From Pseudomonadota bacterium (GTDB taxonomy: Bacteria > Pseudomonadota > Alphaproteobacteria > Rickettsiales > SXRF01), in NCBI GenBank assembly GCA_963205195.1, contig CAUJHR010000010.1, positions 1-64,000 of the forward strand: a stretch of 64,000 nucleotides of DNA, in the 5' to 3' direction. The position numbers were made by a program, and so were the translations under genes. The notes below the pieces were generated by a model, which had not been told where the DNA came from, did no database searches, and saw only the letters and a list, made by a program, of their open reading frames with translations. Shown here piece by piece: positions 15,961 through 45,334 of the stretch. Within the stretch, counting starts at the first letter, position 1. Every line of letters starts with the position of its first letter.

Positions 15961-17754
15961 ATGAAAAATTTTAATGAACCAGACTATCAACGCATAACAC
16001 TTACCATTTTCATAGCAGCTATAGTATTGCTTAGCTGGCAGGCATTATATGAATGGCCGCGCAGACAGCATCTTGCACAAGCTGTAGCAGTGCAGTCACA
16101 AAGGGCAGAAGCTATAAAAGAGAAAAAGGTTGAGGAGATAAAGGCCAAGGAAATCGATGCGGATTTTAATCCGAACCTTACCCGCGCCCAGCGGCTTGAG
16201 AATACGACCCGCGTATTAATAAAATCTGATAAACTACATGGTTCCATAGACTTAAAAGGTGCACGATTTGACGATCTTACATTGGCAAAGTATAAAGTTA
16301 CCCTAGATAAGGATAGCCCAGAGGTCATATTGCTATCCCCTAATGGCGATAATGAAGCATATTTTGCACAGGCAGGCTGGGTTGCAACCGATGGAAAAAC
16401 TAAAGTTCCTGATGGCAAGACCATCTGGAAATCTGACAAAGCCTCTATAAAGGCGAATGAAATTAGCACTCTAAGCTGGGATAATGGAGCAGGTGTAACT
16501 TTTATCCTCTCAATTGCAGTGGATAATGATTATATGTTTAATATAACCCAGCGCGTGGAAAATAATTCCGGCAGCGAAATATCAGTTGCGCCTTATGGTT
16601 ATATCAATCGCAGCCATAATGAAGGACTCCAGGGCAATGTCGTTATGCACGAAGGCCCCCTTGGTGTTGTTGAAGGTGCAATCATTGAAGTCCCATACAA
16701 AACATTGAATGAAAAAGGCAACAAAACCTATGAAAATGCAAATGGCTGGCTCGGTATAACTGATAAATACTGGCTTACCGCACTTGTTCCAGATTCACAA
16801 TTCAAAGGGACATTCAGCCATTATACAAAGAATGGGCAGGAGCGTTATCAGGCAGATTATGTAGGAAGCACCCAGACAATAAACGCAGGGTCAAGCCACG
16901 AATCAAAAATGCGGCTCTTTGCAGGTGCCAAAGAGATAAATGTTCTTGATCGTTATGCCGATGGTGATTCTTCCGGCGCCAACCCGCCAATTCCGTTATT
17001 CGACAGGGCCGTGGATTTTGGGGTATTATATTTCCTCACCAAGCCTTTATTCCTCATGCTCAACTTATTTTATGCAATGATCGGCAATTTCGGGCTGGCT
17101 ATTATGATGGTAACAATCGTAGTAAAGCTGTGCATGTTCCCGCTAGCAAGCAAATCCTATAAGGCTATGGCAAAAATGCGTATTTTACAGCCGGAAATGG
17201 TAAAGCTACGCGAAAAATATCATGATGACCATATCGCCTTGAATAAGGAGATGATGGCCCTTTATAAGCTTCATCGTGTGAACCCTGCTTCAGGATGCCT
17301 GCCCCTTCTTATCCAGATGCCGGTATTCTTTGCGCTTTACAAAGTTCTTTATGTGACGATTGAAATGCGCCATGCACCATTCTTTGGCTGGCTGCGCGAC
17401 CTTTCTGCTCCCGACTCTTCCAACATATTCACATTATTTGGGCTATATCCTTGGGAAACTCCGCACCTGCTGCATCTTGGCATACTGCCCATACTTTACT
17501 GTATAACGATGATAATCCAGCAGCGCCAGCAACCAGCCCCTCCCGATCCGGTGCAGGCAAAAATGATGAAAATAATGCCGTTCGCATTACTCTTCTTGTT
17601 TGCAAGCTTCCCGGCTGGCCTGGTTGTGTACTGGATATGGAGCAATATACTTTCCATTATGCAGCAGGAAATTATAACCTTGCGCCACGGCACGCACCGT
17701 TCACAGCGTGAGAAACAAAATGCTTTGGATAAGGCTGCTGCAAAAAAATCATGA
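15961..17754 (+). CDS. yidC: Membrane protein insertase YidC
   Basis: Long periplasmic domain, NFGLAIMMVTIVVKLCMFPLASKSYKAMAKMRILQPE. Confidence 0.97.
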   Translation: MKNFNEPDYQRITLTIFIAAIVLLSWQALYEWPRRQHLAQAVAVQSQRAEAIKEKKVEEIKAKEIDADFNPNLTRAQRLENTTRVLIKSDKLHGSIDLKGARFDDLTLAKYKVTLDKDSPEVILLSPNGDNEAYFAQAGWVATDGKTKVPDGKTIWKSDKASIKANEISTLSWDNGAGVTFILSIAVDNDYMFNITQRVENNSGSEISVAPYGYINRSHNEGLQGNVVMHEGPLGVVEGAIIEVPYKTLNEKGNKTYENANGWLGITDKYWLTALVPDSQFKGTFSHYTKNGQERYQADYVGSTQTINAGSSHESKMRLFAGAKEINVLDRYADGDSSGANPPIPLFDRAVDFGVLYFLTKPLFLMLNLFYAMIGNFGLAIMMVTIVVKLCMFPLASKSYKAMAKMRILQPEMVKLREKYHDDHIALNKEMMALYKLHRVNPASGCLPLLIQMPVFFALYKVLYVTIEMRHAPFFGWLRDLSAPDSSNIFTLFGLYPWETPHLLHLGILPILYCITMIIQQRQQPAPPDPVQAKMMKIMPFALLFLFASFPAGLVVYWIWSNILSIMQQEIITLRHGTHRSQREKQNALDKAAAKKS

Positions 17755-28397: not shown

Positions 28398-29732
28398 ATG
28401 TCCAAAATTGAATCTGCTGCTGCAAAGCAATCTGCTGCTGCCTCAAACCGAACAGTTACCTTATCTGTAGACGGAAAAAATATTTCTTTTCCTGTTTATG
28501 ATGCAACCGAAGGGCAAAGCGTATTTGATATAAGTAAGCTATATGCAGAAACCGGCATGTTTACTTTTGACCCAGGTTTTATGTCCACCGCCTCTTGCGA
28601 ATCAAAGATCACCTTTATTGATGGAGATCAGGGAATATTGCGCTACCGCGGCTATGATATAGCACCGCTTGCCGAAAAAAGCGATTATCTGGAAGTTGCT
28701 CATTTGCTATTATATGGTGAGCTGCCCAATGCTGAAGAAAAAAAATCCTTCAACCGCACTATAACTATGCACACAATGGTGCATGAACAGCTGCACTTCC
28801 TATTCCGCGGCTTCCCCCGTGCCTCACACCCTATGGCTGTTATGGCAGGCGCAGCAGCTTCACTTGCAGCATTTTACCATGATTCACTCGATGTGAACGA
28901 CCCGGCGCAGCGCGAGATCTCAGCATACAGACTGATAGCAAAAATGCCAACACTTGCTGCAATGTCTTATAAATATTCAATCGGACAGCCATTCATTTAT
29001 CCGCAGAATGACCTGGGCTTTTCTGAGAATTTCCTGCATATGATGTTCTCAACACCTTGTGAAAAATATACTGTAAACCCGGTTCTTGCCCGTGCTATGG
29101 ATAAGATACTTATCCTCCATGCCGATCATGAACAGAATGCTTCCACCTCAACAGTAAGGCTTGCCGGTTCATCAGGCGCAAATCCTTTTGCCTGTATGAG
29201 CGCTGGTATCGCATCGCTATGGGGGCCTGCTCATGGCGGCGCGAACGAGGCAGTAATTAATATGTTACGCGAAATTGGCGACGTTAGCAAAATCCCTGAT
29301 TTTATCCAGAAGGTAAAAGACAAAACCAGCGGCATAAAACTCATGGGCTTTGGCCATCGCGTTTATAAGAATTACGACCCACGTGCAACCGTGCTGCGTG
29401 AAACCTGTAAGGAAGTCCTAGCCGAACTAGGGCAAATCAACGAACCGCTGCTGAAAATAGCTGTAGAACTGGAAAAGATAGCCCTGAACGATCCTTATTT
29501 TGTTGAACGTAAACTATACCCCAACGTGGACTTCTATTCCGGCATTATTTACCGCGCAATGGGCATTCCATCTAAAATGTTCACCGTTCTCTTTGCAGTA
29601 GCGCGCACTGCGGGCTGGATAGCTCAGTGGAAAGAAATGATGGAAGATCCCAAGGCTAAAATCGGGCGTCCACGGCAGTTATTTACCGGTTCTGCACCGC
29701 GTCAGTTTGTACCTTTAGATAAGCGCAAATAA
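28398..29732 (+). CDS. gltA: Citrate synthase (type II)
   Basis: [63 protein letters not shown]. Confidence 0.98.
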
Positions 29733-29747
29733 AAACAATAGAGCCGG

Positions 29748-29807
29748 GATTAGAGATTAGAGCTTGGAAGCTCTGATAACTAATCTCCAATCCCTAATCT
29801 CTAATTA
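29748..29807. repeat. Heptameric inverted repeat array with central hairpin between gltA and mipZ
   Basis: GATTAGA x2 (29748-29761), AGAGCTT-GG-AAGCTCT (29759-29774), CTAATCT CCAATCC CTAATCT CTAATTA (29780-29807, runs into the mipZ stop). Confidence 0.85.
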
Positions 29808-30845
29808 AGATGCAAGGGCTTCCAGCTCGCGTACCGGCTCTGGAGCAGTTTTCAACGGCTCTGAAGAAACCGATGCAGGATTGGCGTTAGCAGCTTCTTT
29901 AGAAGCTTCCGCTGCCTCCTCTTTAGCTTCATCCTTTTTATTCTGCGCCTCTTCCTTGGCAGCAGCTTCTTCGTTCTGCCTGTTTATATGCTCGTCGAGC
30001 TTGGCAATACGCAGGGTTTTAAGCAGGTCACGAACTTCCTGGCGGGCGGCAACATGGGAAAGTGAAAGCCCTACCCCGCCATTCATCTCCATAATATCTA
30101 GCACGGTAAGGCCCTGCAGGAACATTTCACGGAAGATCACACGCTCAGAAAAACCCGGCGCCACTCGGAAACCAATACGGCGTGCCAGCTCTCCTGTCGC
30201 CTGCGTCATGAAGCGTTTGTTTTTAGCATCGATATTGCTCAAACGGTTTCGCATAACTATCCATTCGATTGAGCCGCCATCGCGCTTGGCACGCATAAGC
30301 TTTTGTTCCCAAACCATTTCACTATATATACTTGGCTTTATGATCTTCATGGTCTGCCCGTCAACATTGGCAAGCACATCAAGGTCTACAAAGCTGTCAT
30401 TTATAGGTGTAATAATGGTATCAGCGTGGGCATGGGCAACACGGGAAAGATAAGTATCACTGCCGGGACTATCTACTACTATAAAGTCATTGGCTTCTAC
30501 AAGACGCATAAGAGTCTTTGTAAAACGCTCCCGGTCATCTTCCTCGGCTTCCTGTACAATATTGAAAGGGCTGCGCTGCACTACAACATGCTGCGGCTGC
30601 GGAAGCGCTACGTTTTCCTTGAGAATGGTCTGGCGCCGATTCTCCAGATAGCGCGAAAGTGAGCGCTGGCGTGAATCAATATCGATAGTGCCAACCGAAA
30701 AACCAAGGCGCAGAAGCGCCACTATAAGATGCATGCAGGTTGTGGTCTTGCCTGAACCGCCCTTTTCGTTACCAAGGACAATAACATGCGCTTTTTTGGA
30801 TGGTGCCGATGCCGGTGTTGATGCATTAAATATAGGCTGCGTCAT
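29805..30845 (-). CDS. mipZ: MipZ/ParA-family division-site ATPase with Ala/Glu-rich C-terminal tail
   Basis: HVIVLGNEKGGSGKTTTCMHLIVALLRLGFSVGTIDIDSRQRSLSRYLENR. Confidence 0.88.
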   Translation of the reverse strand: MTQPIFNASTPASAPSKKAHVIVLGNEKGGSGKTTTCMHLIVALLRLGFSVGTIDIDSRQRSLSRYLENRRQTILKENVALPQPQHVVVQRSPFNIVQEAEEDDRERFTKTLMRLVEANDFIVVDSPGSDTYLSRVAHAHADTIITPINDSFVDLDVLANVDGQTMKIIKPSIYSEMVWEQKLMRAKRDGGSIEWIVMRNRLSNIDAKNKRFMTQATGELARRIGFRVAPGFSERVIFREMFLQGLTVLDIMEMNGGVGLSLSHVAARQEVRDLLKTLRIAKLDEHINRQNEEAAAKEEAQNKKDEAKEEAAEASKEAANANPASVSSEPLKTAPEPVRELEALAS

Positions 30846-39212: not shown

Positions 39213-39292
39213 GGGCGGTTAGCTCAGTTGGCCAGCCCCGCGGCGCATGAGCAGAAATGCTTTAACCAACCTGCGCCGCAGCTAGAGATTAA
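39213..39292 (+). pseudogene. Duplicated 5' end of tRNA-Val followed by hairpin-rich unrelated sequence
   Basis: 19-nt exact copy GGGCGGTTAGCTCAGTTGG at 39213-39231, then GCGGCGCA (39240-39247)/TGCGCCGC (39272-39279) stem. Confidence 0.7.
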
Positions 39293-39369
39293 GGGCGGTT
39301 AGCTCAGTTGGTTAGAGCGCCACGTTGACATCGTGGAGGTCGATGGTTCGAGTCCATTACCGCCCACCA
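39293..39369 (+). tRNA. tRNA-Val(GAC), CCA encoded
   Basis: GGGCGGTTAGCTCAGTTGGTTAGAGCGCCACGTTGACATCGTGGAGGTCGATGGTTCGAGTCCATTACCGCCCACCA. Confidence 0.97.
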
Positions 39370-39511: not shown

Positions 39512-40711
39512 ATGAACGCCACACCAATACCCGCAAATGCCACTGCCTGCCTGCTTCTTGCAGATGGCAAGGTATTTTTTGGGGAAGCTATTGGTAAATC
39601 GGAATTTTCTATGGGTGAAATATGCTTCAATACCGGCATGGTCGGCTATCAGGAAACCCTCACTGATCCATCTTACGCCGGGCAGATAATCACCTTCACC
39701 TTTCCGCATATAGGCAATGTCGGCTGCAACCCGGATGATATTGAGGCCAACCGCGTATTCGCAAGCGGCCTGGTGCTGCGCGAGCCTATCACACAACCTT
39801 CCAATTACCGCAGCCAACAGCATTTCAATGATTGGCTGATAGAAAACAATCTAAGCGGCATCAGCGGGGTTGATACCCGCGCCCTCACCCGCCATATCCG
39901 AAAAAACGGGGCGCAGAATGCCGCAATTTTTCCTGTTTCCGCTGAAAAATATAACACCCAGTTAAAAGAAGCGCAGGATAAGCTCCGCACACATCCTTCT
40001 ATGGAAGGTCTGGATTTAGCGGGGCATGTTACCACCAAAGAGCATTATGATTGGACAAGCGGCGAATATTCATTCAAACCAGCAACGCCAAAACCGCAAA
40101 TCTACAATGTGGTAGCGATAGATTACGGTGAAAAACTTAATATCCTGCGCTGCCTTGTCGGGCGCGAATGCAAGGTTAAAGTGGTTTCCGCGCAAACCAG
40201 CGCCAAAGAAATCCTTGGATTAAAACCACACGGAATATTCCTATCCAACGGTCCCGGCGACCCGGCAGCAACTGCCCAGTATTCAACTCCGATACTCAAG
40301 GAACTTATAGATTCCGGAGTGCCTATTTTTGGCATCTGCCTTGGCCACCAATTGCTTGCACAGGCGCTTGGCGGCAAAACCGCGAAAATGCCGCAGGGAC
40401 ACCGCGGCGCCAACCACCCGGTAAAAAATTTACTTACAGGAGCAGTAGAAATAACCAGCCAGAACCATGGTTTCGCGGTACTGGCCGATAGCCTGCCGGC
40501 ACATGTCAAAGTAACTCATGTTTCCCTATTTGACGGAACAGTTGAGGGCCTGCGCGTAGAAGGCAAGCCGGTTTTCACCGTACAATACCACCCGGAATCT
40601 TCCCCCGGCCCGCATGACAGCACCTATTTGTTTGACGATTTTGTGAATATGATGAAGGATAGGATTCAGGATTCAGGATTCAGGATTCAGGGAGGAAAAA
40701 CTTCCCTATGA
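39512..40711 (+). CDS. carA: Carbamoyl-phosphate synthase small subunit
   Basis: MGEICFNTGMVGYQETLTDPSYAGQII; GICLGHQLLAQALG; YHPESSPGPHDS. Confidence 0.98.
   Translation: MNATPIPANATACLLLADGKVFFGEAIGKSEFSMGEICFNTGMVGYQETLTDPSYAGQIITFTFPHIGNVGCNPDDIEANRVFASGLVLREPITQPSNYRSQQHFNDWLIENNLSGISGVDTRALTRHIRKNGAQNAAIFPVSAEKYNTQLKEAQDKLRTHPSMEGLDLAGHVTTKEHYDWTSGEYSFKPATPKPQIYNVVAIDYGEKLNILRCLVGRECKVKVVSAQTSAKEILGLKPHGIFLSNGPGDPAATAQYSTPILKELIDSGVPIFGICLGHQLLAQALGGKTAKMPQGHRGANHPVKNLLTGAVEITSQNHGFAVLADSLPAHVKVTHVSLFDGTVEGLRVEGKPVFTVQYHPESSPGPHDSTYLFDDFVNMMKDRIQDSGFRIQGGKTSL
40661..40688. repeat. AGGATTC x4 heptamer tandem array (left flank of S23 cassette, inside carA 3' end)
   Basis: aggattcaggattcaggattcaggattc, then agggagg. 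Confidence 0.95.
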
Positions 40712-41151
40712 GTATACAAAGCTACAGGGACTTAGAAGTTTGGCAAAAATCAAGAATGTTGGTAACACAGCTTTATCAACTTACCAAAACATTCCCAAAA
40801 GAAGAGAATTATGGGCTTACCAGTCAACTGCGAAGGGCAGCGGTTTCAGTTCCATCAAATATTGCGGAAGGAAAATCGCGGCGTGCAACAAAAGATTATA
40901 TGCGCTTTTTAGATATTGCTTATGGTTCTGTGGCTGAAGTTGAAACACAGTTATTTATAGCTTGTGATTTGGGTTATACGACAGAAAAGAATGTATCTTC
41001 ATTATTGGGTGGCTATGCTGAAATAGGTAGGATGCTTAATGGATTATTATCTAGCCTGGAGCGCTGCCTGAAAACACCTGAATCCCGAATCCTGAATCCC
41101 GAATCCAAAATTGAACCCCAAACTCTGAACTCTGAACTCGCCTATGCCTAA
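40708..41151 (+). CDS. Four-helix-bundle protein (23S rRNA IVP/S23 family) inserted between carA and carB
   Basis: [77 protein letters not shown]. Confidence 0.95.
41078..41105. repeat. (CTGAATC CCGAATC)x2 heptamer array (right flank, inverted relative to left)
   Basis: ctgaatcccgaatcctgaatcccgaatc; a second heptamer AACTCTG x2 follows at 41121-41134. Confidence 0.95.
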
Positions 41152-44933: not shown

Positions 44934-45009
44934 GTCATTCCCGCGCAGGCGGGAATCTCTCTATAGTTTACCCCAAGAATTAATAGGGATTCCTGCTTTC
45001 GCAGGAATG
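44934..45009. repeat. Intergenic double-hairpin repeat (GTCATTCCCGCGCAGGCGGGAATC ... GATTCCTGCTTTCGCAGGAATG)
   Basis: ATTCCCGC/GCGGGAAT (44937-44956) and ATTCCTGC/GCAGGAAT (44989-45008). Confidence 0.85.
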
Positions 45010-45016
45010 GCAAACT

Positions 45017-45334
45017 CTAAAGCTCGTTTATCTTTGCAGCTACTATAAAATCATTCTTGTGCAATCCGCCTACATCATGGGTCATTAGGCGCACCTTCAC
45101 ATAACCCCAGCCAAAATTAATATCGGGGTGGTGGTTTTCCTCCTGCGCGATTTTGGCTATTTTACCCGCAAGGGCAAATGCATTGTCAAAATCAGGGAAT
45201 GTAAATTTACGGAATATAGCAGTGCCGCCATGCGCGAGCGCCCAGCCTGGAACCTGCCCTAACATTGACTTGGCATCCTTTTCATTTATGGCTTCACCAT
45301 TTTTTGTGGATGAGCATTTTTGTTTTGCGAGCAT
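45017..45334 (-). CDS. phhB: 4a-hydroxytetrahydrobiopterin dehydratase
   Basis: FRKFTFPDFDNAFALAGKIAKIAQEENHHPDINFGWGYVKVRLMTHDVGGLHKNDF. Confidence 0.93.
   Translation of the reverse strand: MLAKQKCSSTKNGEAINEKDAKSMLGQVPGWALAHGGTAIFRKFTFPDFDNAFALAGKIAKIAQEENHHPDINFGWGYVKVRLMTHDVGGLHKNDFIVAAKINEL

Follow-up and report, generated by a model that had tools for sequence, protein, structure and literature searches.

In the window, i.e., the whole 64,000-nucleotide stretch of DNA analyzed here, the citrate synthase gene gltA (28398-29732, + strand) and the gene for a MipZ-like ParA-family ATPase, mipZ (29805-30845, − strand), are convergent. Between them lies an element of 63 bp (29746-29808, not assigned to a strand) that consists of nine 7-base steps with the unit GRGATTA. 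Its left arm, GGGATTA GAGATTA GAGCTTG (29746-29766, + strand), contributes the 17-mer GGGATTAGAGATTAGAG, which is repeated exactly at position 162661 of contig C16. The orientation of the array flips between GAGCTTG and the following step, GAAGCTC, in the turning point AGAGCTT-GG-AAGCTCT (29759-29774, no strand), which the first-pass annotation had described as a central hairpin. Next comes the step TGATAAC (29774-29780, no strand), which remains unpaired in the RNA folds and forms a bulge of exactly one heptamer, and then the right arm, TAATCTC CAATCCC TAATCTC TAATTAA (29781-29808, − strand). The array is thus as first read; however, the element is slightly longer than quoted at that time, and the bases GATAA (29775-29779) had been omitted. 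With these bases included, the entire element keeps its 7-base register. As also noticed in the first reading, the last unit runs into mipZ, whose stop codon (29805-29807, − strand) is within the final step. The C-terminal sequence ELEALAS of MipZ is identical across the four species of the genus and, therefore, the array adjoins mipZ without altering the gene.

Several lines of evidence support the presence of a heptamer array with a central hairpin between gltA and mipZ. First, a Markov chain gives chance probabilities for the 7-base period of 3.5e-5 (left arm) and 1.5e-5 (right arm), i.e., on the order of 1e-5 per arm. Second, allowing up to three mismatches, GATTAGAGATTAGAG matches the window seven times compared to 1.35 expected; six of these seven matches are within the element, and none of 100 shuffles reached seven. 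Third, the RNA fold of the element has a z of −3.8 on the + strand and −4.2 on the − strand (approximately −4), and no shuffle folds equally well. An Rfam scan of the window gave no family match for the element above the gathering score and returned two tRNAs only.

The window also contains a palindromic repeat of another kind (CATTCCCGCGCAGGCGGGAATC ... GGGATTCCTGCTTTCGCAGGAATG; 44935-45020). A similar palindrome is located beside murE and matches many places in two congeners. At 39217-39366, a truncated tRNA-like stretch (GGGCGGTTAGCTCAGTTGG) directly precedes an intact tRNA with a like beginning.

The S23 locus in carAB

A gene for an S23/IVP four-helix-bundle protein (40708-41151, + strand; PF05635, E 1.7e-41; TIGR02436, E 1.5e-38) is located between carA and carB. 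Four copies of AGGATTC (40660-40692, + strand) form the left arm of this locus and overlap the end of the carA open reading frame, while the right arm has the unit GAATCCY (41078-41107, − strand); a second, outer right array has the unit AACTCTG (41121-41139, − strand). The likeness of the element at mipZ to the carAB arrays, proposed from the first reading, is therefore borne out by the arms that surround the S23 open reading frame, and the S23-bearing form has the identical body plan, converging 7-base arrays, here on either side of the S23/IVP gene. The S23 element as a whole (40600-41151) is embedded in the carAB operon. The C-terminal tail of the CarA open reading frame is encoded by the left arm and that of S23 by the right arm; in addition, the S23 open reading frame extends over the start of carB. 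S23 is distantly related to Avd (E 4e-9, although the score does not reach the cut-off that the Avd model sets).

Altogether, three S23/IVP genes (PF05635) are present in the genome, and one of them is frame-broken. This frame-broken gene (C16, 8590-9033, outside the window) still lies between GATGACA arms, and its locus is possibly an intermediate towards gene-less arrays.

A genome-wide family of inverted heptamer arrays

Among the 1,882,860 bases (1.88 Mb, 24 contigs) of the genome, we found 28 strict period-7 arrays, while every other period from 5 to 15 had 0 to 9 arrays each and two shuffled genomes had none. An inverted partner within 300 bp that scored above 99% of the background was present for 12 of the 24 arrays tested, and a direct partner for one of the 24. 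Thus, the genome-wide search for inverted 7-bp-period arrays, which the first-pass annotation had proposed as a check, returned a family in which approximately half of the arrays tested are inverted-paired. The gap between paired arms is about 12 to 170 bp, and the purine-rich unit is on the left arm with its complement on the right. The element at mipZ, with its two converging period-7 arms, has this organization.

Many arrays are intragenic with the reading frame kept, including those in polA, pheT, murB, murD, murE, ileS, leuS, gltB, thiC, recO, aroE, an RNase R-like gene, and others (host genes were named from our reading of the translations). Examples, all outside the window, are the in-frame arms in ileS (C16, 54305-54435), leuS (C16, 212099-212303), polA (C4, 28674-28782), murE (C6, 12389-12580), and thiC (C20, 53076-53107). 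Compared to three congeners, the intragenic arrays are insertions or replacements in variable loops. Native sequence is kept between the two arms in ileS and leuS, and in gltB and recO the congeners carry arrays of differing units at one and the same place. Because the arrays stay in frame and congeners carry other units at these sites, it is unlikely that coding arrays are sequencing errors. The peptides encoded by intragenic arms resemble PESRILNPE and RIQDSGFGIRDSG. Three GATTAGA units contain stop codons in both strands, while three GGGATTC units contain none in either. Accordingly, the GRGATTA subfamily is at gene ends and the GGGATTC arrays are within genes, and the array at mipZ could not survive within a gene as GGGATTC arrays do.

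Gene-less arrays share units with resident S23 arms

Outside the S23 loci, the genome has 30 gene-less arms with an exact period over at least 17 bp. Their commonest units are AGGATTC (6), GGGATTC (5), GAGTCAT (2), and GGATGAC (2), and all four are units, or one-transition variants of units, of the arms of the three resident S23 genes. Unit sharing was scored by counting exact runs; counts with one mismatch were too noisy, with foreign units at up to 32 loci. Units are shared in the same way in distant genomes such as G175 and G160, where AGTAGGC occurs both around S23 and in gene-less arrays. In some genomes, a single unit dominates with inverted pairs, i.e., GATTAGG in G061 and AGTAGGC in G175 and G160.

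The unit of the element at mipZ is also common to other loci. Besides the 17-mer on C16, its kin comprise a pair at 93871-93977 and an arm at 17408, both on C7. Both C7 arrays run from GAGATTA into GAGCTTAGG, and the left arm of the element at mipZ runs into GAGCTTGG. The inner unit GAGCTTR recurs in these two related arrays, which identifies the central "hairpin" of the element as an inner unit of the GRGATTA subfamily.

The unit GRGATTA is one base away from GGGATTC of the S23 locus in carAB; the exact unit was absent from the arms of all three S23 genes in the genome. We estimate that a likeness to within one base arises by chance at a rate of several percent and, being weak alone, it is not what we base the link of the element to S23 on. 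This link rests on mixed arms in the genus: arms on contig C65 of G002 alternate GAGATTC and GGGATTA, and S23 arms of G005 (L148) hold GGGATTA and GGGATTC together. The proposed comparison with the arms of S23-bearing loci thus gave related and mixed arms in the genus, but the exact unit in no resident S23 arm.

Arm-matched arrays are a general feature of S23 loci

At 32 S23 loci from this genome and its relatives, we found 41 period-7 arrays in 100 kb, compared to 0 to 5 for other periods from 5 to 12. In a scan of GTDB genomes, we sampled 80 S23 (TIGR02436) loci across many phyla. Here, 73 period-7 arrays were in the 27.5 kb adjoining the gene versus 26 in 189 kb farther off. Because the 26 arrays in the far control still exceed other periods, the arrays are not confined to S23 loci. 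At 49 of 75 S23 loci, the downstream arm that best matched the upstream arm, among those of all loci, was the one of the same locus, and the alignment to the own arm was above the 95th percentile at 63 of the 75; by contrast, none of 70 control windows displaced by ~600 bp was above the 99th percentile. Together, own-arm matching and the displaced control support that S23 loci in general have inverted, arm-matched arrays with a locus-private unit. In 40 of 45 cases the upstream arm is rich in G, and the median distances of the arms from the matched S23 region are 34 and 24 bp.

Arrays and S23 also co-occur among genomes. In 106 relatives, p was 7e-5 for RGGATTC and 0.003 for GATTAGR, and in 150 genomes of the phylum it was 4e-5 for an RGT-type pattern, all without correction for kinship. 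A reversed-pattern control for GATTAGR is uninformative because GATTAG is the same when read backwards. The association has an exception: in G002, which is 98% complete, no S23 was detected and arrays are present at approximately equal density. The first-pass annotation had named conservation of the sequence as an ordinary terminator in relatives lacking S23 as grounds for refutation; the arrays of G002 go halfway towards this, but what it shares is no ordinary terminator.

Discussion

Here, we describe a 63-bp inverted heptamer array between gltA and mipZ as, probably, a solo, gene-less member of the family that forms the arms of S23 genes and that was spread by copying. The first-pass annotation had suggested a non-autonomous or decayed form of the S23-associated repeat. 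The dispersed arrays, the matched S23 arms, and the shared units support the part of this suggestion that concerns a gene-less relative, but do not extend to descent from an S23-bearing copy or to movement by S23.

The strongest competing explanation is that the arrays are born locally by replication slippage in 7-base steps, that inverted partners arise via quasi-palindrome correction, and that S23 merely tolerates the arrays or hitchhikes with them. Heptamers are the most abundant of the 5- to 11-nt repeats in most genomes according to work that, as cited in PMC4679880, proposes polymerase slippage. Unit numbers do vary, the bulge in the fold equals one unit, and arrays are present in a congener in which S23 was not detected. 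However, local slippage predicts unrelated units at unrelated loci, while such loci share units and these are the units of resident S23 arms; moreover, S23 arms match their own partner only. We, therefore, consider slippage as the sole origin of the arrays rather unlikely.

A second explanation is that the element ends transcription of mipZ, or of both genes, as an intrinsic terminator. A hairpin with a z of about −4 between convergent genes and, on the mipZ-sense strand, a U-rich stretch (UUGUUUUUAUUU) 3′ of the stem fit this idea. However, this stretch is outside the terminator consensus, a consensus scan of the element detected no terminator on either strand, and the + strand, i.e., the gltA-sense strand, has no U-tract 3′ of the hairpin. 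The bidirectional terminator considered in the first reading is, therefore, ruled out for gltA. Sister arrays are located in the middle of genes, and no array follows mipZ in G001 and G003. In G001, the spacer after mipZ has a foreign, unrelated gene, and G003 has a different neighbor gene. G002 likewise has a different neighbor gene, and a degenerate heptamer array, CTAATCC CTAGTGC CTAAATC CTAATGC, is located there at the corresponding mipZ boundary; none of the three genomes provides a clean empty site for the element. Altogether, termination as the explanation of the element is improbable. Locally, the element is at most a 3′-end hairpin for mipZ, which may, as a modest and secondary effect, terminate or protect the mipZ transcript.

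It is more improbable still that the arrays are binding sites or RNA elements of a global regulator, as annotated for the heptamer elements of Geobacter metallireducens, which has 49 four-heptamer elements and paired opposite-strand repeats listed as putative regulatory (PMC2700814), because a sequence-specific regulator needs a constant site while the units vary among loci and at the orthologous gltB and recO sites of congeners, and many arrays are within essential coding regions.

Returning to a gene-less member of the S23-arm family, several known systems share some of its features. Based on analogy, the system whose working most resembles that of the heptamer/S23 arrays is REPIN-RAYT (Bertels and Rainey 2011, PMC3116915), which in outline also comprises gene-less inverted pairs and a gene flanked by them; however, its defining test failed here. 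The partner is the four-helix-bundle protein S23, the repeat unit varies by locus, and the genome has no match to the Y1 transposase family (PF01797), which rules out REP/RAYT proper. Like the Rickettsia palindromic elements (PMC10969869), the arrays are small and palindromic and reside in frame in unrelated essential genes of an alphaproteobacterium-like host. However, the Rickettsia elements are ~150 bp long and form conserved families with a conserved peptide, whereas the heptamer arrays have no fixed sequence and their two arms can bracket native sequence. The element at mipZ is itself intergenic, and it is sister arrays with other units that are in frame in genes.

Heptamer repeats have been described in several other bacteria. 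The GGGNATC repeats of Xanthomonas and Nostoc (Rehm et al. 2015, PMC4692102) are likewise dispersed tandem heptamers, have nearly the same unit, and form 70 to 75 converging inverted pairs per Xanthomonas genome. They were interpreted as G-quadruplexes that are under-represented in coding regions, without a tie to mobile elements or S23; by contrast, arrays here are common within genes, and the element at mipZ lacks regular runs of three G. Xanthomonas campestris encodes an S23 homolog, XCC0516 (PDB 2gsc). In G. metallireducens (PMC2700814), dispersed tandem heptamers also include classes of repeats that are paired across opposite strands with variable spacing, and some are intragenic; they were read as regulatory sites and no link to S23 was made. 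The TAACTGA repeats of the Beggiatoaceae (PMC4679880) are dispersed tandem heptamers as well, but have one fixed unit, almost always as a direct array, and again the link to S23 was not made. In the 23S rRNA intervening sequence of Coxiella (PMC4990558), the S23 gene resides within complementary arms, and tandem GACAGAT copies are located just before the open reading frame. This sequence is in the 23S rRNA gene and is excised by RNase III; arm-matched arrays or gene-less copies were not reported. The heptamers of Xanthomonas/Nostoc, Geobacter, Beggiatoaceae, and Coxiella are published pieces of one phenomenon. Apart from a remark on Coxiella, no paper that we found in the open-access literature joins S23 to heptamer arms.

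How might such arrays spread? In the mechanism that we propose, arm sequence would first be copied into new sites; we infer copying since slippage alone can hardly place the same unit in unrelated genes. Subsequently, the number of units per arm would drift via slippage, 7 bases at a time. Fold-back templating during replication would then produce the second, inverted arm and keep it matched, in line with gaps of about 10 to 170 bp and with arms that bracket native coding sequence. Finally, the Avd relative S23 may recognize the arms once folded, in DNA or RNA, and act in trans to spread or maintain them, similar to the role of RAYT for REPINs.

We put forward only tentatively that S23/IVP plays the active part in a widespread system by which inverted heptamer arrays are written and maintained, also in frame in essential genes. 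By analogy, and with the same reserve, such an S23-centered system could work like REPIN-RAYT, although without a known transposase or reverse transcriptase. The genome has no match to the reverse transcriptase family PF00078, and RNA-templated spread through a resident reverse transcriptase was, therefore, rejected. S23 has no known catalytic activity. With neither a reverse transcriptase nor a Y1 transposase found in the genome, the chemistry, if S23 is involved, would come from host replication and repair or from a novel activity.

The element in the window is, by itself, a minor and ordinary member of its family, and the interest rests in the association with S23. The S23/IVP proteins (TIGR02436) form a common family that is poorly understood outside 23S rRNA intervening sequences, and heptamers have been reported as over-represented without agreement on the cause. 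Our observations connect the two: in many phyla, S23 genes lie within inverted, locus-specific, arm-matched arrays, and solo arrays and the resident S23 arms have units in common. This suggests that S23 and the dispersed arrays belong to a single system. If S23 is the spreading agent, this would be a novel type of small repeat system through which peptides are inserted into, for example, IleS, LeuS, PolA, and MurE, and it would account both for the role of S23 outside rRNA and for the old excess of heptamers in bacteria.
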